From a virus: DNA of 20,489 nt. The DNA is taken from positions 1 to 20,489 of IMG/VR virus record IMGVR_UViG_3300048879_000049; one strand, given 5' to 3'. The notes under the pieces are model-generated. The model worked only from the letters and a program-made list of their open reading frames with translations. It did not search any database and was not told the origin of the DNA. Of this stretch, positions 1-11,727 are shown in pieces. Each line of letters starts with the position of its first letter. Within the stretch, counting starts at the first letter, position 1. A program made the position numbers and the translations under genes.

Positions 1-1306
1 TATAAGGGTCTCTTACTTCCATATGAGTAATCATATGCGCTAAATCAACACCCGTTAAATTTTTTCGATAAAGTTCCCTATAGATAATTAAAGTACCATC
101 TGTGGGGTCAATACTGCCCCATATACAAGCACTTTCAGAAGCATAGCCGTAGTCTATCCCCTTAGTTCGTTCCCACCCAAAGGGGATCTCAAAAGGAATA
201 ATAACGTGCGTTTGTAAATCAAACTCAGTAAAGGCTGCTCCTTCCGCCACATCCCAATCGCCCTCCAAAAGTTGCTTTCGCTGTACAGCCGGTAAAGCTT
301 GTAGCATGTGCTCATAACGACCATCCTGACAAAGATATGGATTATCTTGTAGTCTTGCTGGAATAAACTTCCGCGTTAGACCGTCCTCACCCTCAAAAGA
401 TTCATTCGGCGGAGCAGAGGTCACATATCTTTTTTTAACCCACTGTGATCCTACACCGCCGGGATTAGCCGTACAACGTAAATAAGGCGTTATTTCCGAA
501 TCTGTTGTACGCAATCTCGATGCTAAATAGTTCCAAGAGAATTCTGTTGGCAGATGCGTAATCTCGTCAAACCCTATCCATGAATAAGCTTGTCCTTGAT
601 AACGATAAACATCAGCATCCCTTTCTAAAAAACCAAATTCTATTTTAGCCCCACTCGGAAAGTTCCATAGTTTTTCTACTTCTCTAAATTTACATCCGGG
701 GAAAGCTTGTGGATAAAGTTCTCTAGATTTATCGATAAGCTCTCGTAGTTCAGGCATTGACCTTCTTAATATTAAAGCCCGATGAGCAGCCCTGTGAGCA
801 TACCTCAAAGGGTCTACTAACATCGCATAAGACTTCCCGCCTCCTGCTGCTCCACCATAAAGAACATCTATCTCCGGTGAAGCTAAGAAATCTGTTTGCG
901 GACCAGCATTAGGTTTAAAAACAATATTATTAGCAATTTCTTTTTGGACCCTTAAGGGGGCATTATCAATAACATCCGTTGTTGTAACCTGTCCTGTCTT
1001 TGTTGTTTTGTCTTTATTAAGTTTATTTAATAATTCTTTCGAGTTATTTAATGCCTTACGCTGATTCTGTAATTTTATTTCAACTGCTTTAACTCTTCTT
1101 TGCTTAGTTTTAACAGCTTTCTTAGCTTGCATACGTGCTTTTGTATCGCTATGATAATTATATCCTCTTCCTTTTGAACCTTTTGCACGACCAGTTTTCT
1201 TACAAGGTGTACCATCCTTTTTAAGGATAAAACTTCCGTTGTCGTCTGTAGCATATTTCTCGGGATATATCTCCCAATCAAGTTTAGTAACGGTCTCTGA
1301 TGACAT
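1..1306 (-). CDS. terL: Terminase large subunit (TerL), 3' end cut by the window edge
   Basis: This is the ATPase-nuclease motor that packages phage DNA into the prohead. I translated it by hand; about 435 codons are open from the ATG at 1306 to the left edge. AAGGA lies 6 bases upstream of that ATG. Residues 1-110 form a charged, Lys/Arg-rich extension. A Walker A motif (GGAAGGGKS) lies at about residues 151-159, Walker B (WIGFDE) at 243-248, and a coupling motif (CTANPGG) at about 278-284. The RNase H-like nuclease domain begins with GIDYGY, whose Asp is about residue 385. The remaining nuclease acidic residues lie outside the window. The gene overlaps the end of the upstream 74-aa gene by 23 bases. 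The family assignment is secure; which packaging type it serves (cos, pac or direct terminal repeats) cannot be told from this fragment. Confidence 0.95.
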   Translation of the reverse strand, partial: MSSETVTKLDWEIYPEKYATDDNGSFILKKDGTPCKKTGRAKGSKGRGYNYHSDTKARMQAKKAVKTKQRRVKAVEIKLQNQRKALNNSKELLNKLNKDKTTKTGQVTTTDVIDNAPLRVQKEIANNIVFKPNAGPQTDFLASPEIDVLYGGAAGGGKSYAMLVDPLRYAHRAAHRALILRRSMPELRELIDKSRELYPQAFPGCKFREVEKLWNFPSGAKIEFGFLERDADVYRYQGQAYSWIGFDEITHLPTEFSWNYLASRLRTTDSEITPYLRCTANPGGVGSQWVKKRYVTSAPPNESFEGEDGLTRKFIPARLQDNPYLCQDGRYEHMLQALPAVQRKQLLEGDWDVAEGAAFTEFDLQTHVIIPFEIPFGWERTKGIDYGYASESACIWGSIDPTDGTLIIYRELYRKNLTGVDLAHMITHMEVRDPY

Positions 1307-1508
1307 TCTTTAATCCTTGGTGGCTTATGTTACGTCCAGTTTTAAAGGTGAGCCAAGCTGCTCCATCACGAAGAGATATTGATTTATCCGAAACTAGTGT
1401 TTGGATCTTATCAAGTGCCTCTAGTTCTTCTGGAACCTCTTCGAGTTCCTTTGAACCTTCTGTATATGGTCTATAGCCAAATGGCGTTTTACCTAACTTC
1501 GGCCTCAA
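1284..1508 (-). CDS. Small protein between TerS and TerL, serine-recombinase-linker-like
   Basis: This is a 74-aa protein of unknown function. It starts at TTG, not ATG, but AAAGGAGG, an almost complete ribosome binding site, lies 9 bases upstream inside the end of the TerS gene. It overlaps TerS by 20 bases and TerL by 23, so all three are probably translated together. The sequence has TPFGYRPY near the N-terminus (residues 8-15), then an acidic Glu-rich stretch, then a pattern like KSISLRDGAAWLTFKTGR (about 42-59) and an ending IRDRY. That order (PFGYR, then a helix-turn-helix-like part with spaced ILNNRY-type ending) resembles the DNA-binding linker region of large serine recombinases without the catalytic domain. 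This is a resemblance by eye only; a DNA-binding packaging helper is an inference. Confidence 0.75.
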   Translation of the reverse strand: MRPKLGKTPFGYRPYTEGSKELEEVPEELEALDKIQTLVSDKSISLRDGAAWLTFKTGRNISHQGLKNVIRDRY

Positions 1509-1869
1509 TGATTATTTCCTCCTTTGCTGGTAATATAAACACTCCACCTGAAACTGCGTGTTTAACCTCCAATGTATCTTTTTTACCTAACCCTACGCGG
1601 TCTAAGATCGTCTGCGCTGCCTGAATTCTCATACTTGCTTGTGGGATTGGTTCATTAGATTCCATCACATCTACAAGTTTTTGTGCAGCTTGCGGGGCTG
1701 ACTGAGCAAGAATAGTCGAAGCCATCTCTAAAATTTCAGATTTAAGTGCTTTAACTACATGCCAATGAGATGTATATCCTGATAGTTCAGCGGCTTTTCT
1801 AGGATCACCCCCAGTTGCAATTAAGTTTTCAAGGAAATTCTCTTGTTTAGTTGTTAATTGTTTATTCAT
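1489..1869 (-). CDS. Terminase small subunit-like protein (TerS)
   Basis: This 126-aa protein is the probable DNA-recognition subunit of the packaging enzyme. The N-terminus (LTTKQENFLENLIATGGDPRK, then AAELSGY, residues 5-32) is the helix-turn-helix pattern typical of phage small terminase subunits. A middle helical part (residues 44-95, with repeated Ala/Gln/Leu heptads and LDRVGLGKK) would form the oligomerisation core. The C-terminus is GGVFILPAKEE plus an acidic tail. Its place directly upstream of TerL supports the call. No ribosome binding site precedes the ATG; instead a consensus promoter ends 8 bases before it, so the mRNA is predicted to be leaderless or nearly so. The annotation is by pattern and position, not by a database match. 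Confidence 0.82.
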   Translation of the reverse strand: MNKQLTTKQENFLENLIATGGDPRKAAELSGYTSHWHVVKALKSEILEMASTILAQSAPQAAQKLVDVMESNEPIPQASMRIQAAQTILDRVGLGKKDTLEVKHAVSGGVFILPAKEEIIIEAEVR

Positions 1870-1877
1870 ATTATTAC

Positions 1878-1906
1878 ATTATAGGGCTGTATTTCAGGTT
1901 TGTCAA
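1878..1906 (-). promoter_or_regulatory. Consensus sigma-70 promoter for the packaging genes
   Basis: Reading leftward, TTGACA (1906-1901), a 17-base spacer and TATAAT (1883-1878) match the consensus at all 12 positions. The expected transcription start is about 1871, only two bases before the TerS ATG at 1869. Confidence 0.85.
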
Positions 1907-1926
1907 GTAGTTTGATAAAAAAGGAC

Positions 1927-1955
1927 TTGACAAGTTCCATATTCAACCCTATAAT
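1927..1955 (+). promoter_or_regulatory. Consensus sigma-70 promoter pointing into the gene-free region
   Basis: TTGACA (1927-1932), a 17-base spacer and TATAAT (1950-1955) match the consensus at all 12 positions. It is the mirror image of the TerS promoter: CTTGACAA and CCCTATAAT here face TTGTCAAG and ATTATAGGG at 1900-1907 and 1878-1886, and both pairs are centred on 1916.5. The expected start is near 1962, at an imperfect palindrome (1962-1980) around ACCCC and GGGGT. No rightward coding region follows until 6996, so the product would be a non-coding or antisense RNA if the promoter is active. Confidence 0.8.
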
Positions 1956-1985
1956 ACTAAGTATACCCCCAGGGGTTATAGTACT

Positions 1986-2043
1986 TAAGAGTGTATAAGT
2001 TTTATAGTTTATGTTTTTAAAGAGTTCTAAAACTATTTTAGAA
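1986..2043 (+). repeat. Dispersed hairpin repeat, copy A
   Basis: This stretch is closely similar to 8334-8392 in the same orientation, about 6.3 kb away. Both have TAAGAGTGTATAAGTTTTA at the left, then a T-run, then GAGTTCTARAACTATTYTAG. Arms AGTTTTATA (1998-2006) and TCTAAAACT (2026-2034) can pair over 9 positions with one mismatch. It lies 24 bases downstream of the predicted start of the rightward promoter at 1927-1955. Confidence 0.75.
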
Positions 2044-2281
2044 TAATTATAGAATTAAACTGGACTGTCCGCATTAAATGAGTTAGATGCAGTACAAGAC
2101 CTCAATATAAAATACCTATAGAAAGAATAAGTGACTACGAGACATTAGCGAAATAAGAGCATCCCAAAAGTATAAGACTATTTTCAAGCCCTATTAGAGA
2201 GCATCTCTAAGCCTCAGATAGTGTGTATCAACTTTACATTTGAAAATGGCTCAAAATGTTTATGATTTAGTATATATGGTG

Positions 2282-2310
2282 GGGAGGGGGGGTGGTCTCC
2301 TGCCCCTCCC
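2282..2310. repeat. GC-only inverted repeat
   Basis: GGGAGGGG (2282-2289) pairs with CCCCTCCC (2303-2310) around a 13-base loop. No T-run follows on either strand, so it does not look like an intrinsic terminator. The loop contains GGTGGTCTC, which occurs again at about 2666-2674 next to a second short hairpin (GAGAC at 2658-2662 with GTCTC at 2670-2674). Confidence 0.6.
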
Positions 2311-2470
2311 AAGTCTCCGAAGTCCTCCGAAATCTTAAGTCTAAGCTATAACATTCAGAATATTCTATAACTAATTGTTTTATCTCAGAATACTTCAAGG
2401 GATTTTAAAATAATTTTAAAGTGAGCGGCAAGTTGACATCAGGTTGCGTCGCTACGAGAGTCTTAAATAT

Positions 2471-2552
2471 CATTCTCGAACTGCTAGAACGCTATTAAAT
2501 TTAATAACTTATCCTAAAATAAGCATAGTAAATTCTAGCAGTTGAAAGAATG
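2471..2552. repeat. Nested inverted repeat, possible structured RNA or origin element
   Basis: Outer arms AACTGCTAGAA (2479-2489) and TTCTAGCAGTT (2533-2543) pair perfectly over 11 bases. After a 2/3-base internal loop the pairing continues for 6 more (CATTCT 2471-2476 with AGAATG 2547-2552). The interior holds two further hairpins: the perfect 14-base palindrome TATTAAATTTAATA (2493-2506) and CTTAT/ATAAG (2508-2512 and 2519-2523). The fold is a junction of three stems, unlike a simple terminator. Confidence 0.7.
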
Positions 2553-2731
2553 ACACCGAGCGACACCAATACCGAACGATTCTAAACGACGCACAGGGTC
2601 CGCGCTAAACGGTAGGCAGTAGGTAGGTATAGGGGTGCATTAGATAATGGCATGGCGGAGACTAGGGGTGGTCTCAGGGGTGTATTTTGATGGGGGTTGG
2701 CGAGTATGTTTCGAGTACTCAAATTCTAGAC

Positions 2732-2754
2732 AAAAAAAAGTCCCCGAAGGGACT
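2732..2754 (-). terminator. Intrinsic terminator with UUCG tetraloop, leftward
   Basis: On the - strand the order is AGTCCC, TTCG, GGGACT, then a run of T (2739-2732). The 6-bp stem closed by C(UUCG)G is a classic stable tetraloop. It lies 29 bases past the stop codon of the 188-aa gene and would end the leftward transcripts before the gene-free region, insulating the packaging genes. Confidence 0.9.
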
Positions 2755-2782
2755 AAATGGTCTGGGTTTATTTTAGTTTAGA

Positions 2783-3349
2783 TTATGAGTTTAATAGTGC
2801 TTTCAGGTCGATTCCAAGTTCGGACGCCATGTCCAAAAATGCATCAAGTTTAGCATCGCGCTCATTATCGACAGCGGTAATTTTTACGCTTGCTGGCTTG
2901 TTCCCAAATCCGTTTGGCTTGAGCACCTTAGCTGCTGCGACCTTATGCTTCGCGGTAGTCTTTTTTGTAGTCTTTTTGGTAGTGTTATCGACCTGTAAAA
3001 ACATAGGATATTTAGTAATATCGACGCCGTCTGCTTTGAAAGCGTAATTGAACTTATCTAATTGAATTAAAGCTTTAAGATTAGCCGGTATTTTTTTAAT
3101 TTTCTTATAGGCTTCAACTTCACCGGCGGTTACCGCGCCATTGTGCAGAGCACTCATGGAGGCTTTAATATTCCCGACAAACTTGTTACGGATTTTAGTC
3201 TTACTTGAGTCAATACCTAGTTCAGCAAGTATTAGATCCGCTAAGTGATAGGATGGCGTCCACAATGCCCTGTGATTAACTACGGAATCGGCGTTTATCG
3301 TTACTTTATCGCCGCGTTTGGTCGTATAAGTTACTGTTTTATTTGACAT
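2783..3349 (-). CDS. Hypothetical Lys/Thr-rich protein, last gene of the left early block
   Basis: I do not recognise this 188-aa protein. Residues 1-120 look like a folded domain with mixed charge. Residues about 122-145 are a low-complexity basic linker (repeats of TTKK, then Ala/Lys), and the C-terminal 40 residues are acidic and helical with ELGIDLKALL near the end. A phrase of the same kind (AELGID) occurs near residue 43, which may mean an internal repeat. The basic linker suggests contact with nucleic acid, by inference only. The ribosome binding site is weak (GAGG about 12 bases upstream). Two promoters lie upstream (3434 and 3610) and a terminator lies directly downstream, so it may be an independently expressed unit. 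Confidence 0.8.
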   Translation of the reverse strand: MSNKTVTYTTKRGDKVTINADSVVNHRALWTPSYHLADLILAELGIDSSKTKIRNKFVGNIKASMSALHNGAVTAGEVEAYKKIKKIPANLKALIQLDKFNYAFKADGVDITKYPMFLQVDNTTKKTTKKTTAKHKVAAAKVLKPNGFGNKPASVKITAVDNERDAKLDAFLDMASELGIDLKALLNS

Positions 3350-3405
3350 TTCGGGTAATAACCTCGTTTTAGATTAAGAATCGACGGAACCCCGCCAGAA
3401 ACCGA

Positions 3406-3434
3406 ACATTAATTCATTCGACAGGCATTGTCAA
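3406..3434 (-). promoter_or_regulatory. Sigma-70-type promoter upstream of the 188-aa gene
   Basis: Leftward TTGACA (3434-3429), a 17-base spacer, and TAATGT (3411-3406). The start would be near 3400, giving a leader of about 50 bases to the ATG at 3349. Confidence 0.65.
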
Positions 3435-3528
3435 ACGTCGCGCTAACTGATTGTTTCTACTGTTATTATTTTCAATGAAACTTAGTCCTATTTATAAAAT
3501 ATAATTAATTATTTAAGTTGGTTATTTA

Positions 3529-3572
3529 GAATATTGGTGAATTTAATTTGGAATATCGGTGAGTTTAATATA
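3529..3572. repeat. Two 22-bp direct repeats next to a promoter
   Basis: GAATATTGGTGAATTTAAT and GAATATCGGTGAGTTTAAT start at 3529 and 3551, 22 bases apart. They are two helical turns apart and lie just downstream of the -10 box at 3582-3587, so they could be operator sites. A 12-bp palindrome (ATAATTAATTAT, 3501-3512) lies just beyond. The rest of 3350-3648 holds only promoters and AT-rich DNA. Confidence 0.5.
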
Positions 3573-3581
3573 GTAACATGC

Positions 3582-3610
3582 AATATATCTTGACAATTAC
3601 TTGCGGTCAA
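3582..3610 (-). promoter_or_regulatory. Second leftward promoter candidate for the 188-aa gene
   Basis: Leftward TTGACC (3610-3605), a 17-base spacer, and TATATT (3587-3582): ten of twelve consensus positions. Transcripts would carry a leader of about 230 bases that includes the 22-bp repeats. Confidence 0.5.
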
Positions 3611-3648
3611 ACACTAGTACATGTCGGTCATCATATTTATTTTTTTAT

Positions 3649-3738
3649 TTATACATGCTCTAAAAAATAAACTGCACCAATAACAATTGTTAAAAGGATA
3701 ATAAAAGAGTTAAGAGTTTCTTTAGTTTCTTTTTTCAT
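3649..3738 (-). CDS. 29-aa single-span membrane protein
   Basis: This very small gene translates as MKKETKETLNSF followed by a hydrophobic stretch (IILLTIVIGAVYFL, residues 13-26) and EHV. One membrane span with a positively charged N-terminus is clear. Its ATG overlaps the TGA of the upstream 65-aa gene as ATGA, so translation is probably coupled. I do not recognise the protein. Small single-span phage proteins include holin-like, superinfection-exclusion and host-takeover factors; nothing here chooses among them. Confidence 0.65.
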   Translation of the reverse strand: MKKETKETLNSFIILLTIVIGAVYFLEHV

Positions 3739-3932
3739 GATGTACCGTTGACTAGCGTTATTTTACCTGCGTGTTGCAATGCAGCAGCTTTTTCATCAGT
3801 TGTAAGATAGATTAGCGTCGTGTTGTTGCCGACAATATCACCGTTTGCTATCGCGTCGCTATAGCCTGCTTCAATCTGCGCTGTGGTAACGCTTCGCACT
3901 TCCGGGTAGCAGAGATGGTAAATTTTGCCCAT
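3735..3932 (-). CDS. Hypothetical 65-aa protein
   Basis: A small soluble protein without a recognised family. GAGGA lies 9 bases before the ATG. The sequence is rich in Ala and Thr, with a Tyr pair near the N-terminus (IYHLCYPEV) and a middle helix (TAQIEAGYSDAIANGD). Its stop codon is used in an ATGA overlap with the 29-aa membrane protein, suggesting that the two work or are expressed together. A weak extended -10 (TGCTAATAT, leftward, 3977-3969) lies upstream without a clear -35 box. Confidence 0.7.
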   Translation of the reverse strand: MGKIYHLCYPEVRSVTTAQIEAGYSDAIANGDIVGNNTTLIYLTTDEKAAALQHAGKITLVNGTS

Positions 3933-4000
3933 AATCTTAGTCCTCTATTGTTGTTTGACTGGAATTACATATTAGCATAAGAGGTCCGTAATGAATCCTT

Positions 4001-4177
4001 TTATTTACTTTCCTTTTTGTTAGAGTGATATAAGGTTATACGATAATTGATGTCATTCTCGTCTGTGATTACGATTTCTGTTACTTTGTAGCCTGCATCG
4101 ACACACAATTTCTTATTTGCTTTTACTCTACGCGAACTACGTTTGATATTGGTTACGTTGTGAAGTGATAGGTACAT
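4001..4177 (-). CDS. Hypothetical basic 58-aa protein
   Basis: This gene starts at ATG 4177, three bases after the stop of the upstream gene, and ends at TAA 4001. It has an N-terminal basic half (IKRSSRRVKANKKLCVDAGY) and a C-terminal half with beta-strand-like pattern (KVTEIVITDENDINYRITLY) ending in KKESK. The ribosome binding site is poor (GGGAAAA), so coupling to the upstream gene is likely. No family recognised. Confidence 0.7.
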   Translation of the reverse strand: MYLSLHNVTNIKRSSRRVKANKKLCVDAGYKVTEIVITDENDINYRITLYHSNKKESK

Positions 4178-4180
4178 ATT

Positions 4181-4402
4181 TCATTTTCCCTTGTTTGCGG
4201 TATATGCTTGGTCAGTAAAAATATCTTCAAGGTCATAGTAGCCAGTGAGATGAGGCGATTTCTTTAGGTGGTTTCGGACAGCATTTGCTAAGCCTCGGTT
4301 CGTTCCCTCCCAAAAATATCTATCTTGACCAAATGCCTTACCCTCTACGGCAGCGGCGTCTTGCTGCTCAATGGTAGGTTGACGATACTTCCAGGTTGCC
4401 AT
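4181..4402 (-). CDS. Hypothetical 73-aa protein, first gene behind the 4447-4475 promoter
   Basis: The start at ATG 4402 is chosen because AGGAG lies 7 bases upstream. A longer frame reaching 4456 begins with TTG inside the promoter and could not be translated from it. The protein starts MATWKYRQPTIEQQDAAAVEG and has two aromatic patches (DRYFWEG and GYYDLED). It is probably helical and soluble. No family recognised. Confidence 0.78.
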   Translation of the reverse strand: MATWKYRQPTIEQQDAAAVEGKAFGQDRYFWEGTNRGLANAVRNHLKKSPHLTGYYDLEDIFTDQAYTANKGK

Positions 4403-4446
4403 GATAACTCCTAATATTTTTGCTGGATTTTGTGGGTGAGCGAAAC

Positions 4447-4475
4447 ATCCTAGCAACCGACAGCGTGATTGTCAA
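4447..4475 (-). promoter_or_regulatory. Phage early promoter, extended -10 type (leftward)
   Basis: TTGACA (4475-4470), a 17-base spacer ending in TGC, and TAGGAT (4452-4447), followed by TGTTTCGCTC. It belongs to the family also seen at 5891, 6825, 6913, 8705 and 10905. The start is expected near 4440, 38 bases before the ATG at 4402. Confidence 0.85.
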
Positions 4476-4508
4476 CCGTGAGCACCATGTTATTAAGTTA
4501 TCTTTTTA
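4453..4508. repeat. 56-bp promoter-upstream repeat, copy 1
   Basis: Identical to 5897-5952 except at two positions and in the same orientation. It covers the promoter spacer, the -35 box and about 33 bases upstream, including the conserved block read on the + strand as CCGTGAGCACCATGTTATTAA. Conservation well beyond the -35 box suggests an activator site or an UP element, or a recent duplication. Confidence 0.9.
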
Positions 4509-4691
4509 CTTACTTTTAGGTATAGTATTTTGTTCAAGACTATCAAAATTTTCCTTACATTCTAAGCACATATGATTGAGTTTAGACTTGTAACAGTAGC
4601 CTGATTTCACATACCAGCAACAATATGAAACTCCTAATGGTGCTAAAATATTTTCTGCAGTATTAAAAGTCTTTTGCTTAAGTTGTTTCAT
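4506..4691 (-). CDS. Cysteine-rich 61-aa protein
   Basis: A small protein with five Cys: C24-C25, C33 and a CLEC pair (C42, C45). The Cys spacing could hold a zinc ion, but the pattern does not match a family I know. The N-terminus is basic and helical. It is the last gene of the block that begins at 5818, and the 56-bp repeat starts right after its stop. No good ribosome binding site is seen. Confidence 0.65.
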   Translation of the reverse strand: MKQLKQKTFNTAENILAPLGVSYCCWYVKSGYCYKSKLNHMCLECKENFDSLEQNTIPKSK

Positions 4692-4741
4692 AGTATTAAA
4701 ATATCTTGGATAATAGTGGTTGGTTTAGTTTGCTGTAACAT

Positions 4742-5014
4742 TTAACAACTCTCTATTTTTGGTAATTTAATTTTAACTATTTCATACGCCGACCAAACAT
4801 CTTTACTTTCCGAATGTATTACTTTGTTACCTTCTATTGTTGCATAGCTTTCCCATTTCCAACCAAGGGAATCTTCCCAATCATCATTTAATCTTATGTT
4901 CATAGCACCAATCGCATCTTGTTCGCTATCAAACATACCAATACATTCCCACTCCTCATAATTAAGGGATGACATTATGCAATTAGCATAGCTCAGTAAA
5001 ATAAATTGATTCAT
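4742..5014 (-). CDS. Hypothetical 90-aa protein
   Basis: AAGGATTAATAG precedes the ATG, the same leader seen for the next gene at 5320 and for TerL. The protein is acidic with many Trp (WEC, DDWEDSLGWKWESY) and an ending KIKLPKIESC. The phrase EWECIGMFDSEQDAIGAMNIRL looks like a small alpha/beta fold. No family recognised. It lies between the paralogous 97-aa gene and the Cys-rich gene in one operon. Confidence 0.72.
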   Translation of the reverse strand: MNQFILLSYANCIMSSLNYEEWECIGMFDSEQDAIGAMNIRLNDDWEDSLGWKWESYATIEGNKVIHSESKDVWSAYEIVKIKLPKIESC

Positions 5015-5026
5015 TCTATTAATCCT

Positions 5027-5320
5027 TTATGCAAATTTCATATCAAAACTTGGGGGTTTACAGTATAAATTTTTATATCTAGTAGGGTTAAAACCGGAAC
5101 CTACAATCGGCAAACTTTTAATCTCTAATAAAATAACATCTACAGTTTCAGGTGTACAGTACCCTGTGACCGAAGTAACCGTATCATATTCTAATAGTGT
5201 CACTTCAAATACCCCGTCATGGTGAGGCTCCTTGACGACACTAGCACTATATCCGTTATCGAATGTGTATATTTCGTGCCACGATAGCAGCGAACTATCA
5301 TTAATTATTTCAACATTCAT
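5027..5320 (-). CDS. NGY-ASV-K family protein, paralogue of the gene at 8424
   Basis: This 97-aa protein contains TFDNGYSASVVK (residues 19-30), then FEVTLLEYDT, a Thr/Val-rich strand, GYCTPETVDVILLEIKSLP and a short tail. The same order appears in the rightward 94-aa protein (FNNGYGASVIK, LWELAILD, GYLTDDKVKETLNKIKKF), so the two are homologous. I believe similar proteins with the NGYGASV core are common in phages, but I know no function. AAGGATTAATAA precedes the ATG. It is the third gene behind the promoter at 5891-5919. Confidence 0.8.
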   Translation of the reverse strand: MNVEIINDSSLLSWHEIYTFDNGYSASVVKEPHHDGVFEVTLLEYDTVTSVTGYCTPETVDVILLEIKSLPIVGSGFNPTRYKNLYCKPPSFDMKFA

Positions 5321-5336
5321 TTTATTAATCCTTTAT

Positions 5337-5615
5337 TTAAGGCCACGTTCGATGAACTTCGGCCACCCATTCAGCCCCATCGTACTCCTCAATAGTATAC
5401 TCTACATCGTCCGGGATTTCGATAACCTTTAGTTTCGCATGTTCACCATTGGCTCTACTACCTAGTTTTTCTACCACTTCAATTAACTTTAAGCTATCTC
5501 TATTATTCCTGTCGTAAAATGGATTAGCCTTCCGAATTGAGCTTTTTAATTCGATCAACGCCTCTTGAGACAGACCAAACCCGCCATAACAGTTATTGAT
5601 AACTATCTTTTTCAT
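5337..5615 (-). CDS. Conserved phage hypothetical protein (NNCYGGFGLS family)
   Basis: The start at ATG 5615 is chosen because GGAG lies 7 bases upstream, within the end of the preceding gene; a TTG at 5621 is less likely. The 92-aa protein begins MKKIVINNCYGGFGLSQEA and later has RDSLKLIEVVEKLG and LKVIEIPDDVEYTIEEYDG, then EWVAEVHRTWP at the very end. This arrangement is a recurrent small phage protein that I recognise from many tailed phages, always without a known function. It follows the zinc-ribbon gene by two bases. Confidence 0.85.
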   Translation of the reverse strand: MKKIVINNCYGGFGLSQEALIELKSSIRKANPFYDRNNRDSLKLIEVVEKLGSRANGEHAKLKVIEIPDDVEYTIEEYDGAEWVAEVHRTWP

Positions 5616-5617
5616 CT

Positions 5618-5818
5618 TCAATCTCCAAAAACATTATCTTGACATGTCTGACACATGGCAGAAATTTGAAATTCTTTTCTGCTCAATTCATCAGTAAAAT
5701 TATCGGCAGGTTCGCCGCATGTTACACACTGATTGTTATCTTTACATTCAGTATAATTTGTTCCAAACATTTGGGTTGTGAAACTCGAAAGAAAGTTTTC
5801 CATTGCTTTAGTTTTCAT
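5618..5818 (-). CDS. Small phage zinc-ribbon protein
   Basis: A 66-aa protein with two CxxC pairs: C31/C34 (CVTCG) and C56/C59 (CQTCQDNVFG), with FTDELSRKEFQIS between them. This is a widespread phage zinc-ribbon family of unknown function that often begins small-gene operons. A weak GAGAAA lies 6 bases before the ATG. It is the first gene behind the promoter at 5891-5919, with a leader of about 65 bases. Confidence 0.85.
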   Translation of the reverse strand: MKTKAMENFLSSFTTQMFGTNYTECKDNNQCVTCGEPADNFTDELSRKEFQISAMCQTCQDNVFGD

Positions 5819-5890
5819 TTACTTTTTCTCATCAGTTGCTATTAATTTAAAATCTTTATCATCTGTCGAATGAATCCAGCGAAGCGCAAC

Positions 5891-5919
5891 ACCTTAGCAA
5901 ACGACAACGTGATTGTCAA
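5891..5919 (-). promoter_or_regulatory. Phage early promoter, extended -10 type (leftward)
   Basis: TTGACA (5919-5914), a 17-base spacer ending in TTTGC, and TAAGGT (5896-5891), followed by GTTGCGCTTCG. It drives the five genes from 5818 down to 4506. The expected start is near 5884. Confidence 0.82.
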
Positions 5920-5952
5920 CCGTGAGCACCATGTTATTAAGTTATCTTTTTA
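5897..5952. repeat. 56-bp promoter-upstream repeat, copy 2
   Basis: Partner of 4453-4508, with 54 of 56 positions identical by eye. Downstream of the -10 box the two regions diverge, so selection or recent copying acts on the upstream half. Confidence 0.9.
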
Positions 5953-5981
5953 ATTAATTACTGTATATATATCTACCTATT

Positions 5982-6203
5982 CTACATACATAATTTTACT
6001 CGCCCGTCCAAAGCTCTCCGCCATGCTATAATTGTGGCCGCATCATTGATTTGGTCAGCATAATTCCTCCGCCCGTGAATACACTTCGGATTGTTAGGGT
6101 TCGCTTCCATCGCGGCGTGACAATCACTAATGATATATCTAAGGGAGGCATCTGACAGCCGCCAAAAGCTATCATTCTCAAGATATTGTGGCTTCGCTTT
6201 CAT
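5982..6203 (-). CDS. Conserved phage hypothetical protein (FWRLSDASLRYI family)
   Basis: A 73-aa protein with FWRLSDASLRYIISDCHAA (residues 13-31), then NPNNPKC, then NYADQINDAATIIAWRR (about 47-63). I recognise this order from small proteins of many phages, annotated only as hypothetical. GAGGTGG lies just before the ATG. It is the third gene behind the promoter at 6825-6853. Confidence 0.82.
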   Translation of the reverse strand: MKAKPQYLENDSFWRLSDASLRYIISDCHAAMEANPNNPKCIHGRRNYADQINDAATIIAWRRALDGRVKLCM

Positions 6204-6252
6204 TATACCACCTCATTGATTTTTAAAAACTTTAAAGAGATTTTAAAATTTA

Positions 6253-6573
6253 TTAAATACTTACTACTTCTTTAAGTAATTTCCGCGCACCTTTTGTGAT
6301 ACCTAATATCTTGCCAGCATTGAGAATTTTTCTCGCTGCTTTCTTAGGTATATATATTTCTTCGAGCGGTCGAGCGTAGCGCAGAACAGATTCTAATAGG
6401 ACGCGATGAATGCGTATACCGAACCCGCCTATCCTACTATCAATCCAAATTAGTTGTGCATACTTACGACCTAATTTACAAACTAACGTAAGTCTAGAAT
6501 GCCCTTGCTTATCCGCAAACCAAACGACACAAGGTGATTCTAGCTTTTTAATTAGATTTATATATTTACTCAT
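6253..6573 (-). CDS. Hypothetical basic 106-aa protein
   Basis: The start at ATG 6573 follows the stop of the preceding gene by one base, which implies coupled translation. A longer frame to 6678 would add a hydrophobic stretch, but that lies over the coding part of the previous gene and has no ribosome binding site. The protein has SPCVVWFADKQGHSRLTLVCK, then RKYAQLIWIDSRIGG, and a strongly basic helical C-terminus (PKKAARKILNAGKILGITKG). The basic tail suggests nucleic-acid binding, by inference. Confidence 0.7.
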   Translation of the reverse strand: MSKYINLIKKLESPCVVWFADKQGHSRLTLVCKLGRKYAQLIWIDSRIGGFGIRIHRVLLESVLRYARPLEEIYIPKKAARKILNAGKILGITKGARKLLKEVVSI

Positions 6574-6574
6574 C

Positions 6575-6781
6575 TTACTTAACCCTAGCAATTTTGCCAT
6601 CTTGCATTGTAACCTTAGCGAAAAACTCGCGGCCAATACCAGTAATATGAGGACGATTAGCCCCAAATAACATCCCATTTAAAACATATTCCTCACCAAA
6701 TACAGAAGTCTCTATATAATTCAGAGGGTTGCCAATGTTTTCCTTGAGTACCTTTTTGCTCGGATAATTAAAGACAATCAT
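6575..6781 (-). CDS. Conserved phage hypothetical protein (FNYPSKKVLKE family)
   Basis: The start at ATG 6781 is chosen for GGAG nine bases upstream and because the longer frame to 6859 reads through the promoter. The 68-aa protein begins MIVFNYPSKKVLKENIGNPL and ends GREFFAKVTMQDGKIARVK. I recall very similar proteins in marine phages near the replication genes, none with a function. It is the first leftward gene from the divergent control region at 6825-6941, so probably among the earliest expressed. Confidence 0.85.
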   Translation of the reverse strand: MIVFNYPSKKVLKENIGNPLNYIETSVFGEEYVLNGMLFGANRPHITGIGREFFAKVTMQDGKIARVK

Positions 6782-6824
6782 ACTAGTTTCTCCATTTTGG
6801 TTGGTTGTGTGATTGAGCGGAAAC

Positions 6825-6853
6825 AGCCTAGCAAACCGCATCGGGCCTGTCAA
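6825..6853 (-). promoter_or_regulatory. Phage early promoter, extended -10 type (leftward)
   Basis: TTGACA (6853-6848), a 17-base spacer ending in GGTTTGC, and TAGGCT (6830-6825), followed by TGTTTCCGCTC. It starts the left arm and is back to back with the rightward promoter 60 bases away. Confidence 0.85.
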
Positions 6854-6912
6854 CCCCATGTACCCTGTGTAATAAAACTATTAAGTATTCAATATAATTT
6901 TGCAACTGGTCC

Positions 6913-6941
6913 TTGACAACGACTTGATGGTGCTTTAGGCT
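6913..6941 (+). promoter_or_regulatory. Phage early promoter of the right arm
   Basis: TTGACA (6913-6918), a 17-base spacer and TAGGCT (6936-6941), the same -10 as the leftward promoter at 6825-6830. TGC here lies two bases further from the -10 box than in the other members. Together the two promoters mark 6825-6941 as the divergence point of the two arms. Confidence 0.75.
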
Positions 6942-6995
6942 GCTCCCAAACCGATGACAACTAACACAAAAATGCTAATCACTAAGGAGAAAAGC

Positions 6996-7259
6996 ATGAA
7001 AAATTTCGTCGCACAAGCCAGCCGAAAACTGGGTAAAAAGCGGATGAAATACGTTGAATTTATTGAGGTCGATTTTGGTGTGGATACAGTCTTTATAGTT
7101 GGTCTGAACCAAGGCTACCACAACGAAGGTTATGGTGAGACAATGTGGCAGTTTGGCGCTCACTGTTTAAAAACTTATGGTGGAGACATGACCACGCAGC
7201 AAATGTGGGATGACCTTATATTCTTTTTTAATGATGTTCAAAAGGTAGAAGTAGCATGA
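6996..7259 (+). CDS. Hypothetical 87-aa protein
   Basis: The start at ATG 6996 has AAGGAG six bases upstream; an in-frame ATG at 6954 lies only about 5 bases past the expected transcription start. The protein begins MKNFVAQASRKLGKKRMKYV, then VDFGVDTVFIVGLNQGYHNEGYG and ends in a helical acidic part (MTTQQMWDDLIFFFNDVQK). No family recognised. The stop overlaps the next start as ATGA, tying it to the GP88-like protein. Confidence 0.78.
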   Translation: MKNFVAQASRKLGKKRMKYVEFIEVDFGVDTVFIVGLNQGYHNEGYGETMWQFGAHCLKTYGGDMTTQQMWDDLIFFFNDVQKVEVA

Positions 7260-8050
7260 AAGTTTCAATTAAAAATTTACCAGTTGCGAACCGTTCGGCT
7301 TTAAATAAAATTAAAAAGGGTTTCGGCTACAGTTTTCAAACTTTGCTGAGTCCACCAGAAGCTAACCCAAAGATTAAAAAGAATAGTAAGGTAGGTGTAT
7401 TGACAGCAGGTATGCATTTATCACCGAGTGATAGTGCTGGTGTCCACTACGGTGAATCTTGGAACGTCTGCCCTAAAGCATCTGACGGTTGCAAGGCAAT
7501 GTGTTTACATACGGCAGGTAATCCAGCATACATGGAAGGTAAGATTCGTGCGAGGCTTGACCGTACTCGGATGTTTTTCCTTAATCGAGATTTGTTTGCT
7601 GCAATATTGGTAAATGAGATTACTTCTCTCCTACGGAAGGCTACCAAGGCGGGTATGCAATGTGGCATTAGGTTAAATGCTACGTCAGATATTTGTTGGG
7701 AGTCGTTTTATATTGACCATCGATTACTTATGAAGATGTTCCCTACCGTAGAGTTTTATGATTATACTGCTATTGCTAACCGAACTACACCAAGCAATTA
7801 TCATTTAACATTCTCGCTAAAAGAAAATAACATGCACGAAGCGATGAATGAATTAAATCGTGGCTCGAATGTTGCAGTAGTTTTTGATACTAAACGTGGT
7901 CAAGAGTTACCAAGTACATACTTAGGATATGATGTTATAAATGGTGATGAGCACGACTTCAGGCCACTAGATGCTAAAGATTCTATTGTCGGACTTAGAG
8001 CTAAAGGTAAGGCAATCTATGATGTTTCAGGGTTTGTTCAAGGAGTTTGA
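7256..8050 (+). CDS. GP88/DUF7227-like phage protein of unknown function
   Basis: This 264-aa protein has a Cys cluster SWNVCPKASDGCKAMCLHTAGN (C72, C79, C83), an Arg-rich helix, then IRLNATSDICWE (about 138-149), FPTVEFYDYTAIANR, YHLTFSL, and VINGDEHDFRPLD followed by IVGLRAKGKA. I recognise this as the phage family known from mycobacteriophage gp88 and DUF7227-type proteins; the name is from memory. The conserved Cys, Asp, His and Arg residues suggest a metal-dependent enzyme, but no reaction is established. It is coupled to the preceding gene through ATGA and sits early in the right arm, a place typical of host-takeover or nucleotide-modification genes (inference). Confidence 0.8.
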   Translation: MKVSIKNLPVANRSALNKIKKGFGYSFQTLLSPPEANPKIKKNSKVGVLTAGMHLSPSDSAGVHYGESWNVCPKASDGCKAMCLHTAGNPAYMEGKIRARLDRTRMFFLNRDLFAAILVNEITSLLRKATKAGMQCGIRLNATSDICWESFYIDHRLLMKMFPTVEFYDYTAIANRTTPSNYHLTFSLKENNMHEAMNELNRGSNVAVVFDTKRGQELPSTYLGYDVINGDEHDFRPLDAKDSIVGLRAKGKAIYDVSGFVQGV

Positions 8051-8052
8051 TT

Positions 8053-8289
8053 ATGATGCTTACAAGTTCAAAAGAATATTTCGGTGAGGGTATAGGTATC
8101 ATACTGAAAACTAAAAGCTTTTTATTTGATGCTTATATCACGAAACGATTACGTTTAAAATTTAGTATTGGATTGGATTTAAAACATATAATCTTATTGT
8201 TGTGGGTCGGACCATTCGCCTTTGAAGTAACCCGTAATTTAAAGCAAGAAGATTTTCATTTTAAAGTTATTGAAGATTCTTTAGAGTAA
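8053..8289 (+). CDS. Hypothetical 78-aa protein with hydrophobic C-terminal half
   Basis: AAGGAG lies 8 bases before the ATG at 8053 (a second ATG follows at once). The protein has a Lys/Arg-rich middle (ITKRLRLKFSIGL) and HIILLLWVGPFAFEV, a short hydrophobic strand or membrane-touching segment rather than a full span. Small phage proteins with a WVGPF-type phrase are common; their role is unknown. Confidence 0.72.
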   Translation: MMLTSSKEYFGEGIGIILKTKSFLFDAYITKRLRLKFSIGLDLKHIILLLWVGPFAFEVTRNLKQEDFHFKVIEDSLE

Positions 8290-8345
8290 GTTTTATAGAA
8301 CAACTAAGAGTTGTATAAGTTTTTTAGAACAACTAAGAGTGTATA
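8287..8345 (+). repeat. Tandem 28-29-bp repeats
   Basis: TAAGTTTTATAGAACAACTAAGAGTTGTA starts at 8287, is repeated at 8316 with small changes, and a third start (TAAGTTTTAGAG) lies at 8344, where the dispersed hairpin repeat continues. ACAACT and AGTTGT (8300-8305 and 8309-8314) form a short hairpin before a T-run, weak for a terminator. The array fills the gap between the first block of the right arm and the gene at 8424. Confidence 0.75.
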
Positions 8346-8392
8346 AGTTTTAGAGTTTATTTTTTTAAAAGAGTTCTAGAACTATTCTAGCA
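8334..8392 (+). repeat. Dispersed hairpin repeat, copy B
   Basis: This is the partner of 1986-2043. Arms AGTTTTAGA (8346-8354) and TCTAGAACT (8375-8383) pair over 9 positions with one G-U wobble where copy A has T-A, which is consistent with selection on RNA pairing. AGTTCTAGAACT (8372-8383) is also a perfect 12-bp palindrome. Confidence 0.75.
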
Positions 8393-8423
8393 TACTTTTT
8401 AACCTTTGTAAAGGGTAATAGAA

Positions 8424-8708
8424 ATGGAAAAATTTGGACACGAAACAACAGTATCGGAACGAGCTAAAGATATAACCTTTGAAAGGTATTTATTTAATTT
8501 TAATAATGGCTATGGTGCATCCGTAATTAAAGCTGACTATTCTTATGGCGGTTCAAGTGGACTATGGGAATTAGCCATACTTGATATAGGTGGAAATATT
8601 ACCTACGAAACACCTATCACAAATAATGTATTAGGGTATCTAACTGATGATAAAGTAAAGGAGACATTGAATAAAATTAAAAAGTTTCATAGAAAAGATG
8701 GGGCTTGA
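8424..8708 (+). CDS. NGY-ASV-K family protein, paralogue of the gene at 5027
   Basis: This 94-aa protein has FNNGYGASVIKADYSYGGSSG (about 28-48), LWELAILDIGGN, and VLGYLTDDKVKETLNKIKKF. It matches the leftward 97-aa protein block by block. AAGGG lies before the ATG. Its last codons overlap the promoter at 8705-8733, so the -35 box is partly coding sequence. Function unknown. Confidence 0.8.
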   Translation: MEKFGHETTVSERAKDITFERYLFNFNNGYGASVIKADYSYGGSSGLWELAILDIGGNITYETPITNNVLGYLTDDKVKETLNKIKKFHRKDGA

Positions 8709-8733
8709 CAGCGTTTGCGAAATGCGCTAGACT
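8705..8733 (+). promoter_or_regulatory. Phage early promoter (rightward), second block
   Basis: TTGACA (8705-8710), a 17-base spacer and TAGACT (8728-8733), followed by GTTTCGCG. The preceding GATGGGGC also occurs before the promoter at 10905. The expected start is near 8740. Confidence 0.82.
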
Positions 8734-8771
8734 GTTTCGCGTTGATACAAACACCTCTAATGGAGAAGGAT

Positions 8772-9701
8772 ATGTTAACAGCATTAAATGATAATCATGA
8801 AGCAATTCAAGAACTAAGAGACACCGGCTACGGTGAGGCAGATTTTGAAGTTAAGAAGGCAACGGTAGAATTTTCTATACTTGATTCTTTGGGAGCAGTA
8901 CATCACCACTTTCCAAGTAAAGAAGTTTATTATCGAACTGATACTTTAGAGCCTCTAGCAGTTCACGGTCAGCATTATAAACCCTTACAGTACCGTGAAA
9001 TGATTGACAAAACTAGGGATATGATTGAACGCTGTAGCTTAGATGCAACAGGAGTCAAAGAAAATATACAGGTATCACCGAATGGTGGGATGTGTGCAGT
9101 TAATTATACCTTACCTGCCAAAGAATATATAACACCTGATGGTGACAAGGGATGTGTTAAAGTAATGGCACTATCTAGCTTCAACGGGGTTTGGAGCTTT
9201 ATATTATCTTTAGGGTTTCAGCAATGGGCCTGCTTTAATTCTCAAATCTTTATCAGGAACCCTGCCTCAATATATAAGGCTCGACACACTAATAAACTTG
9301 ATATTGAGAAGGGTGTATATGTTCTCGGCAAGGTTGCTAATGTTATTGAAGATGAGATTGAACTTTGGCACGATTGGTATAATACTCCGGTCAATCAGGT
9401 TGAAAGAACTATGATCTTTGCGAAGTGTGCAAATTTCAAGGGTGATTTTAACATGTTACTTCAAGATATGAGATGCTATAATCAGTTAGACCATGCGACT
9501 AACAAAACTCTAGCATACTTAAATGAAGTATATAATACTAACTATGGCCCTCGGATGGGTGACAACCGATGGTCAGTATATAATGCTATCACTGATTGGA
9601 GCACTCACGCCCCATCATCTAGTAAAAATACGATAGCATTGTCACAACGTAGAACTGAAAGAGCTTCAGAAGTAATTAATGAGTATTTACTAGCAGCATA
9701 A
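8772..9701 (+). CDS. DUF932-like phage/plasmid protein
   Basis: The start at ATG 8772 (309 aa) is chosen because GGAG lies 6 bases upstream and the longer frame to 8715 runs into the promoter. The protein has NGGMCAVNYTLPAKEY, ALSSFNGVWSF, a central helix region with VERTMIFAKCANFKGDF, and near the C-terminus RWSVYNAITDWSTHAPSSSKN followed by Arg-rich and RASEVINEYLLAA. The YNAITDWSTH signature and overall length fit the DUF932 family found in phages and plasmids, whose role is unknown. It is the first gene of the second rightward block. Confidence 0.78.
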   Translation: MLTALNDNHEAIQELRDTGYGEADFEVKKATVEFSILDSLGAVHHHFPSKEVYYRTDTLEPLAVHGQHYKPLQYREMIDKTRDMIERCSLDATGVKENIQVSPNGGMCAVNYTLPAKEYITPDGDKGCVKVMALSSFNGVWSFILSLGFQQWACFNSQIFIRNPASIYKARHTNKLDIEKGVYVLGKVANVIEDEIELWHDWYNTPVNQVERTMIFAKCANFKGDFNMLLQDMRCYNQLDHATNKTLAYLNEVYNTNYGPRMGDNRWSVYNAITDWSTHAPSSSKNTIALSQRRTERASEVINEYLLAA

Positions 9702-9724
9702 ACTAAACCTAAAGGAAAATGAAA

Positions 9725-9997
9725 ATGGAATCAGCTAAAGAATACACAACATCTAATGTACTTACACATAAATCTAAAATAGATTACTTATCTATTCAAA
9801 ATTCTCAAGCACCTCCGCGTAAGACTCAGCCGCACTCTGCTTGGCGTGATTTATTTATTTCAATGAAAGTAGGTCAGTGGATGTTTATTCGTAAGTCAGA
9901 CTACGGTAGGGTATGTGCCGCCGCTAATAGTTATGTCAAAGGACGCTATACAATGTATCAAGTACCTGAAGGGTATTGTTTTCTAAAAACTAAGTAA
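9725..9997 (+). CDS. Hypothetical 90-aa phage protein
   Basis: AAGGA ends 8 bases before ATG 9725; an ATG two codons earlier (9719) is too close to it. The protein has a Ser/Lys-rich N-terminus, then SAWRDLFISMKVGQWMFIRKSDYGR and VCAAANSYVKGRYTMYQVPEGYCFLKTK. The C-terminal half looks like a small alpha-beta domain common in phages (GQ-W-x-I, then A-Y-x-KGRY) of unknown role. It follows the DUF932 gene by 23 bases. Confidence 0.75.
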   Translation: MESAKEYTTSNVLTHKSKIDYLSIQNSQAPPRKTQPHSAWRDLFISMKVGQWMFIRKSDYGRVCAAANSYVKGRYTMYQVPEGYCFLKTK

Positions 9998-10026
9998 AGG
10001 GAGGTGTTGCGCCCCATATAGCTATG

Positions 10027-10049
10027 TGACCTGAGTAAGTCCATAAACT
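10027..10049 (+). repeat. 23-bp motif with GAC/GTC stem, copy 1
   Basis: TGACCTGAGTAAGTCCATAAACT matches 11678-11700 at 20 of 23 positions. GAC and GTC frame an 8-base loop, and a T-run follows at about 10056-10062. It lies in the 94-base gap before the 83-aa gene. Confidence 0.6.
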
Positions 10050-10091
10050 TCTCATCCTTTTTTAAAATTTAAAATAGCGAGTAAATAAATA

Positions 10092-10343
10092 ATGAAAAAG
10101 CCTACAACAGCGAGAAGGAACGCACAATTAAAAGAAACAATTTTAAAAATTTTATTTGGAAATAGCATTAGCAACGAGAATTTTAGTGATGAAGAAATTA
10201 TCCTTCGTATAAAAATGCTTTCAGATTTTTATGAGAAGGTGATTGAAACTGCATTGGATAAAGATTTAGAAACTTACTTAGATTCTTCAGATACAACTAG
10301 CTCTGAAAAATGGACTCGTTGGGCATTAGATAATATCTCCTAA
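10092..10343 (+). CDS. Hypothetical 83-aa acidic helical protein
   Basis: It starts MKKPTTARRNAQLKETILK, then mostly acidic helices (SDEEIILRIKMLSDFYEKVIE) and ends SEKWTRWALDNIS. No family recognised. The ribosome binding site is weak. It is followed by several similarly small genes. Confidence 0.65.
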   Translation: MKKPTTARRNAQLKETILKILFGNSISNENFSDEEIILRIKMLSDFYEKVIETALDKDLETYLDSSDTTSSEKWTRWALDNIS

Positions 10344-10359
10344 GTTAGGAGTAATTGAT

Positions 10360-10541
10360 ATGAAAAAACAAACAGGAACTCCAGAGATTCTAAAAAATCT
10401 CATGCTCATCAATCTGATAAAGACTATTCAAGAAAGAATACGTCCGATTGGTTTGATGAATACTACCGTAATCGTTACTTAGTAAAAGATAACTTACTAA
10501 GCTCCTTCTCTAGTAAAGGAAATTTTTATAGTGTTATATAA
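10360..10541 (+). CDS. Possible 60-aa gene with its frame broken at an A6 tract
   Basis: TAGGAG lies 8 bases before the ATG at 10360, a clear start site. The zero frame gives only 40 codons with poor composition and stops at 10482. From the A6 tract (10363-10368) the -1 frame gives a hydrophilic, protein-like sequence (NRNSRDSKKSHAHQSDKDYS, then SDWFDEYYRNRYLVKDNL) to TAA at 10541, overlapping the next gene by 11 bases. A single added A would join the good start to the good frame. A sequencing or assembly error, a real mutation or frameshifting could explain this; the -1 heptamer A-AAA-AAC is not in the standard phase. Confidence 0.4.
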
Positions 10542-10677
10542 AACACACAACGAAACAGACGATATTGATATTAATTTTTCTTCACGCAAAGGTTCTATTA
10601 GCATAAGCTATAATAATATTTTAAATACAAATGAATTCAGTACACTTAGGCAGTTAGCCGGTAGTCTAAAAATTTGA
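10531..10677 (+). CDS. Hypothetical 48-aa protein, GTG start
   Basis: It begins at GTG 10531 with AAAGGA ten bases upstream and ends at TGA 10675-10677. The sequence has an acidic run (NETDDIDINFSS) and ends LRQLAGSLKI. It overlaps the end of the shifted-frame gene before it. No family recognised. Confidence 0.5.
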   Translation: MLYKTHNETDDIDINFSSRKGSISISYNNILNTNEFSTLRQLAGSLKI

Positions 10678-10685
10678 GGTGTTCT

Positions 10686-10892
10686 ATGACAAATGAAATA
10701 ATTATTGATGATTTATGGACGAAGTTATTTGCATTACACATTGGATGTAAATGTCCTAACGAAAGAGTAAAGGAAAAATTTATTAATTTTATACTCGCCC
10801 TTAAAAATGACCAAGAATCTGATAATAATTTAACAGAAGAATTTGTATTCTCGCAATTTCCAGAATTTATTAATTATCTAGCGGAATATTAA
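10686..10892 (+). CDS. Hypothetical 68-aa protein
   Basis: GAGG lies 6 bases before ATG 10686. The 68 residues are mostly acidic and aromatic (DDLWTKLFALHIGCKCPNER, later EEFVFSQFPEFINYLAEY). A short CKC is the only Cys group. No family recognised. It is the last gene before the promoter of the replication operon. Confidence 0.72.
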   Translation: MTNEIIIDDLWTKLFALHIGCKCPNERVKEKFINFILALKNDQESDNNLTEEFVFSQFPEFINYLAEY

Positions 10893-10904
10893 GTGAAGAT
10901 GGGG

Positions 10905-10933
10905 TTGACACCACACCTCGACTGTGCTAAAGT
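10905..10933 (+). promoter_or_regulatory. Promoter of the replication operon
   Basis: TTGACA (10905-10910), a 17-base spacer ending in TGC, and TAAAGT (10928-10933). GAAGATGGGG just upstream matches the sequence before the promoter at 8705. No later promoter of this family was found to the end of the window, so it probably serves SSB through nrdB. Confidence 0.82.
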
Positions 10934-10973
10934 GGTGACGTAGCTGAACAACTAACTAAAGGAGAGATATTTT

Positions 10974-11402
10974 ATGGTTTATGAAGGTACAGCTTATTGG
11001 GCATCTGTTACTACACCGAATACTAGGTTTGAACCTAAGTATACGATTGATTTAGTAGTAGATGAAGACACTGCCGAACAGCTTCGGACTAGTGGCATAA
11101 CTATTAAAGATAAAGAGGAGGGTCCAACCGTTACCATGAAGCGTAATGTTAATGGACCGAATGGTATGGTTCGTAGAGCGCCACGGCTCATCGACCGGAA
11201 TAAAGACGAGTTAGATTGTCTAGTTGGCAACGGCTCTAAGGTAAGGGTTCAAGCAAAGGAATGGGAAATCAACCGCAACGGTCAGGCTTTTAAGGGACTC
11301 GAACTCCAAGCTGTACAGGTTTTGGATTTAATTGAGTACAACCCTGGTGATGGGGATGAGTTTGCTACCTTGTCAGATGAGGCTGAAGTTGACAGCTTGT
11401 GA
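10974..11402 (+). CDS. Single-stranded DNA binding protein (T7 gp2.5-like)
   Basis: A 142-aa OB-fold protein that coats single-stranded DNA and helps polymerase and helicase. It starts MVYEGTAYWASVTTPNTRFEPKY, then strands TIDLVV and VTMKRNV, and NGSKVRVQAKEWEINRNGQAFKGLELQAVQVLDL. The last 20 residues are acidic and end in hydrophobic residues (GDGDEFATLSDEAEVDSL), the typical partner-binding tail of phage SSBs. AAAGGAGAG precedes the ATG. Its place before the helicase and polymerase supports the call. It is shorter than T7 gp2.5. Confidence 0.85.
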   Translation: MVYEGTAYWASVTTPNTRFEPKYTIDLVVDEDTAEQLRTSGITIKDKEEGPTVTMKRNVNGPNGMVRRAPRLIDRNKDELDCLVGNGSKVRVQAKEWEINRNGQAFKGLELQAVQVLDLIEYNPGDGDEFATLSDEAEVDSL

Positions 11403-11665
11403 GTGAAGAAAAGAAACAAGTTATCTACGCAAAGGATGATTCTAAATACAACGTAAATGACTTTACCGATGAAGCTAAAATATCATTTACTTATCTTATT
11501 GAAATTAATCAGGAAGTAATGGCGCTAACAAAACGGATCACTATACTACAAGCAGCTTCCGTTACGTTAAGTCAAAAGATTAATGATCAATTAACAAGTA
11601 ATATGGTTATAGAAAATGCTGAGGCTGCTAATGAACTAGCAGACAATGAGCACCTCGGGTATTAA
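11399..11665 (+). CDS. Small coiled-coil protein (possibly DUF6447-like)
   Basis: An 88-aa protein that starts at GTG in a GTGA overlap with the SSB stop codon. The first 25 residues (YNVNDFTDEAKISFTYL) are followed by a long heptad-like helix (INQEVMALTKRITILQAASV). I recall small phage proteins of this shape called DUF6447; this is from memory and not tested. The overlap suggests it is made with SSB. Confidence 0.7.
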   Translation: MSEEKKQVIYAKDDSKYNVNDFTDEAKISFTYLIEINQEVMALTKRITILQAASVTLSQKINDQLTSNMVIENAEAANELADNEHLGY

Positions 11666-11677
11666 TTTCTAAAAGTT

Positions 11678-11700: not shown

Positions 11701-11727
11701 GCCTTTTTTAAATACAGGAGAAATGCA

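Follow-up and report, generated by a model that had tools for sequence, protein, structure and literature searches.

A conserved pair of divergent consensus promoters beside TerS in HMO-2011-type phages: a putative early/late hub with a predicted leaderless TerS mRNA

Gene content and layout of the locus

The 20,489-base virus record analysed here over its full length (the window) comes from an HMO-2011-type phage, judging by its homologous TerL, and phages of this type are among the dominant groups in the ocean. The best match of the window TerL is in the Pelagibacter phage HTVC115P (64% identity over 91%), followed by the HMO-2011/CRP group, and TerS finds its matches in the same phages; a near-mode comparison with GenBank phages returned no nucleotide match to the window. 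On the plus strand lie genes for a family A DNA polymerase that carries an exonuclease domain, a primase/helicase, endonuclease VII and ribonucleotide reductase, and the contig ends short of the capsid gene. Two conserved genes near the replication genes, at 7256-8050 and 8715-9701, encode GP88-family and DUF932 proteins. Homologous TerS and TerL, similar gene content and divergent arms are common to HTVC115P, HTVC103P, HTVC104P, HTVC033P, the CRP phages and HMO-2011 (PMC9038755).

Between TerS and the first gene to its right in the window are two promoters that point away from each other, which we refer to as the hub. On the gene map of HTVC115P, the hub marks the boundary between a rightward early/replication arm and a leftward late arm. 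The features on the TerS side and the promoter pair itself are as follows.

2..1306, minus strand: TerL (phrog_979, 1.5e-67), a late-arm gene downstream of TerS
1489..1869, minus strand: TerS, a relative of the Terminase_2 family (phrog_51)
1878..1883, minus strand: -10 box TATAAT of the leftward TerS/late-arm promoter (sequence and relatives)
1901..1906, minus strand: -35 box TTGACA of the same 12/12 promoter, present in nearly all relatives
1907..1926, no strand: AT-rich 20-bp interval between the -35 boxes, variable in relatives; possibly a shared UP-like region
1927..1932, plus strand: -35 box TTGACA of the rightward (RNA-side) promoter (sequence and relatives)
1950..1955, plus strand: -10 box TATAAT of the rightward promoter (sequence and relatives)

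The promoter pair in the window

Sigma-70 promoters are recognised by TTGACA and TATAAT hexamers spaced 16-18 nt apart. Inspection of the sequence and a promoter scan both confirmed the first-pass annotation's reading of 1878-1955 as two divergent TTGACA-N17-TATAAT promoters, each matching at 12 of 12 positions. These were the sole sites above 10/12 in a scan of positions 1-20000, and the strict divergent pattern, found once in the window, was absent from 100 dinucleotide shuffles. Across 867 kb from 112 dereplicated relatives, just one further divergent pair of at least 11/12 turned up.

The pair had also been described as an exact 78-bp dyad about position 1916.5. This holds for the hexamer arms, which are centred there, but symmetry outside the hexamers is partial: the 36-nt arms are 72% complementary, and by our own count the inner 20 bp are symmetric at 6 of 10 positions. 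Any two divergent consensus promoters whose spacers have the same length will show such symmetry, so the exact dyad simply follows from the pair. The interval between the -35 boxes varies from 6 to 42 bp among the 112 dereplicated loci and is wider in several more, reaching about 90 bp; apart from its AT content (76%, versus 62% for the loci as a whole), which would suit a shared UP-like region, it has no common sequence. This variability led us to reject a fixed symmetric 20-bp operator. It also speaks against the earlier proposal that a symmetric protein bound to the 20 bp between the -35 boxes switches both promoters, as does the lack of within-phage similarity beside the -35 boxes (see below); the exact dyad of the hexamers is in its favour, and we consider the proposal very improbable.

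Conservation of the pair in relatives

Searches with the TerS sequence only returned 103 loci with a TerS open reading frame, and in 86 of these the two promoters each score at least 11/12, within 60 bp. Strong host-type promoters flanking TerS are thus conserved in relatives, and the absence of conservation that would have refuted the first-pass annotation is not observed. Of twelve exceptions inspected by eye, ten have the pair: in eight the gap is wider, and in two the scan had overlooked it. Of the other two, one is truncated by the contig end, and L193 is without the pair. A separate scan for divergent consensus promoters yielded loci that are selected for their hexamers; these were excluded from the conservation counts and included in the co-variation tests. 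Among the matches listed in that scan, many loci have this TerS family adjoining one of the promoters. The conservation statistics thus rest on the TerS-only searches and on a scan with a second conserved motif (element 2, below), which hit 83 contigs; among the 76 newly fetched, TerS is present in 71 and the complete promoter pair in 65.

Over 112 dereplicated hubs, a number whose effective size is inflated by clade structure, the early promoter matches at 12/12 in 76 and 11/12 in 36, and the late promoter at 12/12 in 81. The same picture emerged from the 91 dereplicated loci that were not promoter-selected, with perfect early promoters in 63 and perfect late promoters in 67. Pelagiphage isolates share the hub of the window, which is present in HTVC115P, HTVC103P, HTVC104P and HTVC033P, the last having promoters of 11-12/12 and a TerS located further downstream. 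HMO-2011 and CRP-2 differ in that a 12/12 promoter stands at the arm boundary in the late direction only, with TerS inside the late operon and not adjacent to it. By sequence comparison, then, the divergent promoter pair is conserved in HMO-2011-type phages. Further promoters of 11-12/12 lie inside the early arm in L263, L275, L121 and L108, some of them ahead of genes with a Shine-Dalgarno-like sequence.

The TerS start and its predicted leaderless mRNA

Sigma-70 transcripts usually begin about 7 nt past the -10 box, with a range of 6-9 nt. In the window only GTAATAAT separates the -10 box from the TerS ATG, which lies 8 nt past the box, and there is no Shine-Dalgarno sequence before the start codon, as is typical of leaderless mRNAs. 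Most loci have the ATG at an offset of 6-8 nt, and 80 of the 91 dereplicated loci not selected by promoter fall within 6-10 nt. The mRNA would therefore begin at or next to the AUG, and we predict from this geometry that TerS is expressed from a leaderless transcript. In L004 and L007, another gene with a Shine-Dalgarno sequence is inserted between the late promoter and TerS. The first-pass annotation overlooked both that TerS begins at the predicted transcript start and that the opposite promoter faces non-coding DNA.

Leaderless transcripts are known in relatives of the likely hosts, with 171 leaderless starts reported for Sinorhizobium meliloti (PMC3616915). Alphaproteobacterial mRNAs of this kind, with AUG at the transcript start, would be translatable by such relatives; the predicted case here differs in being a packaging gene of a lytic phage, conserved across a phage group. 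Our literature search found nothing on a leaderless terminase, on promoters or on expression timing in HMO-2011-type phages, and a text search of the main comparative paper on the group found no mention of promoters or intergenic regions (PMC9038755).

The rightward promoter and the non-coding stretch

In most relatives the rightward promoter is aimed at early genes, and the genes beyond the non-coding stretch point away from the hub. The arrangement in the window is given below.

1962..1980, plus strand: hairpin (TATACCCC/cag/GGGTTATA) where the rightward transcript is predicted to begin; arm covariation over 40 loci
1962..2780, plus strand: non-coding stretch past the rightward promoter, with no plausible open reading frame; parts nearly identical in L004
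2229..2310, plus strand: conserved element 2, ACTTTACATTTGAAAATGG..AAAATGTTTATGATTTAGTATATATGG, a G/C-only tract, then TGGTCTCCTGCCCCTCCC (scan and relatives)
2739..2754, minus strand: strong intrinsic terminator (AGTCCCTTCGGGGACT TTTTTTT) that closes the leftward-pointing early block ahead of the hub (sequence scan)
2783..6859, minus strand: block of early genes whose orientation is inverted in the window and L004; homologues in other relatives on the opposite strand relative to the hub

Early-block genes of the window and L004 face the hub, and elsewhere the homologues of 2783-3349 and 6575-6859 are found on the other strand. Because of this inversion, the rightward promoter of the window cannot be the promoter of the early-block mRNA; it nevertheless still matches at 12/12 in both phages. 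The stretch from about 2088 to 2340 is also nearly identical between them, yet the protein encoded at 2783-3349 is just 71% identical. Promoter and non-coding stretch have thus survived the inversion of the block, and they therefore seem to be retained for more than early-block expression.

For the hairpin at the predicted transcript start, real folds average -6.7 kcal/mol as against -4.6 kcal/mol for chimeras of unrelated halves (p 0.0002, with the non-independence of clades left in), and G-U pairs outnumber A-C mismatches in the stem by 19 to 9. Rfam gave no match to a known RNA family. Strong terminators stand 40-60 nt downstream in L022, L094 and HTVC115P, but overall only 11 of 112 loci have one, with 6.2 expected, and a short terminated sRNA was accordingly rejected as the general product. 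The palindromes ACTTTAAAGT, TCTTTAAAGA and ACTCTAGAGT recur in the leader of the 112 loci, roughly 45-445 nt past the early -10 box and 3.5-fold more often than in shuffles; they may be binding sites of a dimeric protein. In the clade of L006, L008, L009, L010 and L027, a short open reading frame (METPHDLK... in L006) directly follows the 5′ hairpin, and it is possible that the rightward promoter drives a protein gene there.

Element 2, a single-copy non-coding motif, consists of an AT-rich box, a sequence-free G/C tract and TGGCCTCCTGCC, and lies roughly 85-200 nt past the -10 box in most loci. Its consensus, built by eye and then tested as an exact pattern, reads AAAATGTATATGTATTAGTATATATA, about 14 nt of mostly G/C with neither fixed sequence nor polarity, and then TGGCCTCCTGCCC. 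The motif also occurs in L314 and L312 at the arm boundary; HMO-2011 and CRP-2 have related sequences in that position, with TerS lying elsewhere. We regard it as a candidate for the origin or the pac site. Clustering of contig ends, which a cos site would require, is not seen at the element: in 38 whole contigs none falls within 200 nt on its 3′ side and two fall within 30 nt on its 5′ side. An R-loop primer on the G tract is disfavoured by the occurrence of the tract on either strand.

Resemblance of the two promoters within one phage

The spacers of the two promoters agree at 8.29 of 17 positions within a phage, compared with 6.94 after shuffling of promoters between phages (p 0.0001, with relatedness among loci left in), and 79 loci that had played no part in finding this resemblance showed it again. 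The signal is concentrated in the last three bases before the -10 box (z 5.6, 7.3 and 6.0) and at position 5 of the box itself (z 5.2), is weaker at -21 to -16, and is absent beside the -35 box. At -10 position 5, the choice of A or C is concordant between both promoters of one phage (Fisher 6e-7). Shared control of the two promoters is plausible given this pattern at -21 to -13 and -10 position 5. Homogenisation of the pair by gene conversion is disfavoured, the resemblance being confined to the vicinity of the -10 box.

The two hub promoters of HTVC115P have the context AGGTG-TATAAT or GGGTG-TATAAT, as do another two 12/12 promoters in its late arm. Four perfect promoters of this phage (L149 554, 536 and 3894; L158 18860) place (A/G)GGTG ahead of TATAAT; two lie far inside the late arm, and the four could possibly form a late regulon. 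At other strong sites of the same loci, many of which lie within coding sequence, the triplet is shared below chance (0.67). Promoter distances and TerS distances show a weak partial correlation (0.11), too weak to decide whether TerS reads the promoters. Ten window proteins were scanned, with no regulator family among them.

Interpretation and alternative explanations

The reading we favour, to which we give a probability of roughly 0.6, is a divergent early/late promoter hub of HMO-2011-type phages that is read by host sigma-70 and combines a leaderless TerS with a structured RNA leader. The DNA itself shows the promoter pair and that it is conserved, that the gap varies, how far the ATG stands from the -10 box, that the hairpin covaries and that the promoters of one phage resemble each other; transcript starts, leaderless translation, timing and regulator we infer as follows. 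Host sigma-70 RNA polymerase would read both promoters at the boundary of the early and late arms. The leftward one would initiate late/packaging transcription on the TerS AUG or no more than two nucleotides from it, and TerS would be translated from the resulting leaderless mRNA. The rightward transcript would open with the stem-loop and continue for several hundred non-coding bases in the direction of the early arm. The pair may be tuned together at -21 to -13 and -10 position 5 by a phage DNA-binding protein or by a preference of the host RNA polymerase. One candidate regulator is TerS itself, given that autorepression at PL1 is reported for the TerS of SPP1 (Chai et al. 1997, as cited in PMC6316719). 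SPP1 resembles the window in having a promoter upstream of TerS, a DNA-binding protein with a double role, and differs in the Shine-Dalgarno sequence of gene 1 and the atypical -35 of PL1; TerS autorepression in the window phage is thus only an analogy.

Lambda-type cI/cro switches offer another comparison, above all PY54, whose cI and cro are both expressed as leaderless mRNAs from strong divergent promoters (PMC4488713). The hub would have in common with it strong promoters placed back to back, leaderless mRNA (predicted for TerS) and an AT-rich, possibly UP-like region, but such switches are flanked by repressor genes and have shared operators between their promoters, whereas in the window TerS takes the place of the repressor gene, the other side is non-coding, the interval is variable and no operator set was found.

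Several observations fit the hub less well: the early block of the window is inverted and faces the hub, HMO-2011 and CRP-2 keep only the late-direction promoter without TerS beside it, and the promoter-TerS correlation is weak. The two promoters might instead be constitutive host-type promoters with no dedicated regulator, their resemblance reflecting what host RNA polymerase prefers at and upstream of the -10 box and late timing arising from other steps. Sigma region 2.4/3.0 reads DNA in the -10 neighbourhood, to which the co-variation is confined, and both the concordance at -10 position 5 and the scan of the ten window proteins agree with such an explanation. The recurrence of AGGTG-TATAAT at late-arm promoters of HTVC115P, as in a phage regulon, and the below-chance sharing at other strong sites, many being intragenic, argue the other way; we hold constitutive promoters to be possible, with some doubt.

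Two further explanations concern the non-coding side. A functional non-coding RNA (a regulator, a packaging RNA or a transcriptional activator of an origin) beyond an early leader would account for the covarying hairpin, for the excess of G-U over A-C expected of RNA on this strand, for the retention of promoter and non-coding region in the window and L004, and for the nearby terminators in L022, L094 and HTVC115P. The scarcity of terminators elsewhere, the Rfam result and the coding frame directly after the hairpin in L006 and its relatives make it doubtful in our judgement. Alternatively, this side may act as DNA, as a replication origin or pac site across which transcription is incidental; in favour of this are the single-copy element 2, retained even by HMO-2011 and CRP-2, which lack an adjacent TerS and the rightward promoter, and the enrichment of palindromes such as ACTTTAAAGT. 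We rate this as unlikely, since it leaves a near-invariant rightward promoter and a hairpin at +1 unexplained, and the scatter of contig ends is against a cos site. A bolder version of the hub, in which the rightward promoter makes a dedicated structured RNA for replication or packaging, kept despite the inversion, and TerS, made from its leaderless mRNA, acts in packaging and also as repressor of the hub, so that one compact element times the early-to-packaging switch in a dominant group of marine phages, appears quite unlikely as a whole.

If the favoured early/late hub is correct, it would give HMO-2011-type phages a concrete and testable point of expression control, and isolates that carry the hub exist (HTVC115P and others on SAR11 strains).
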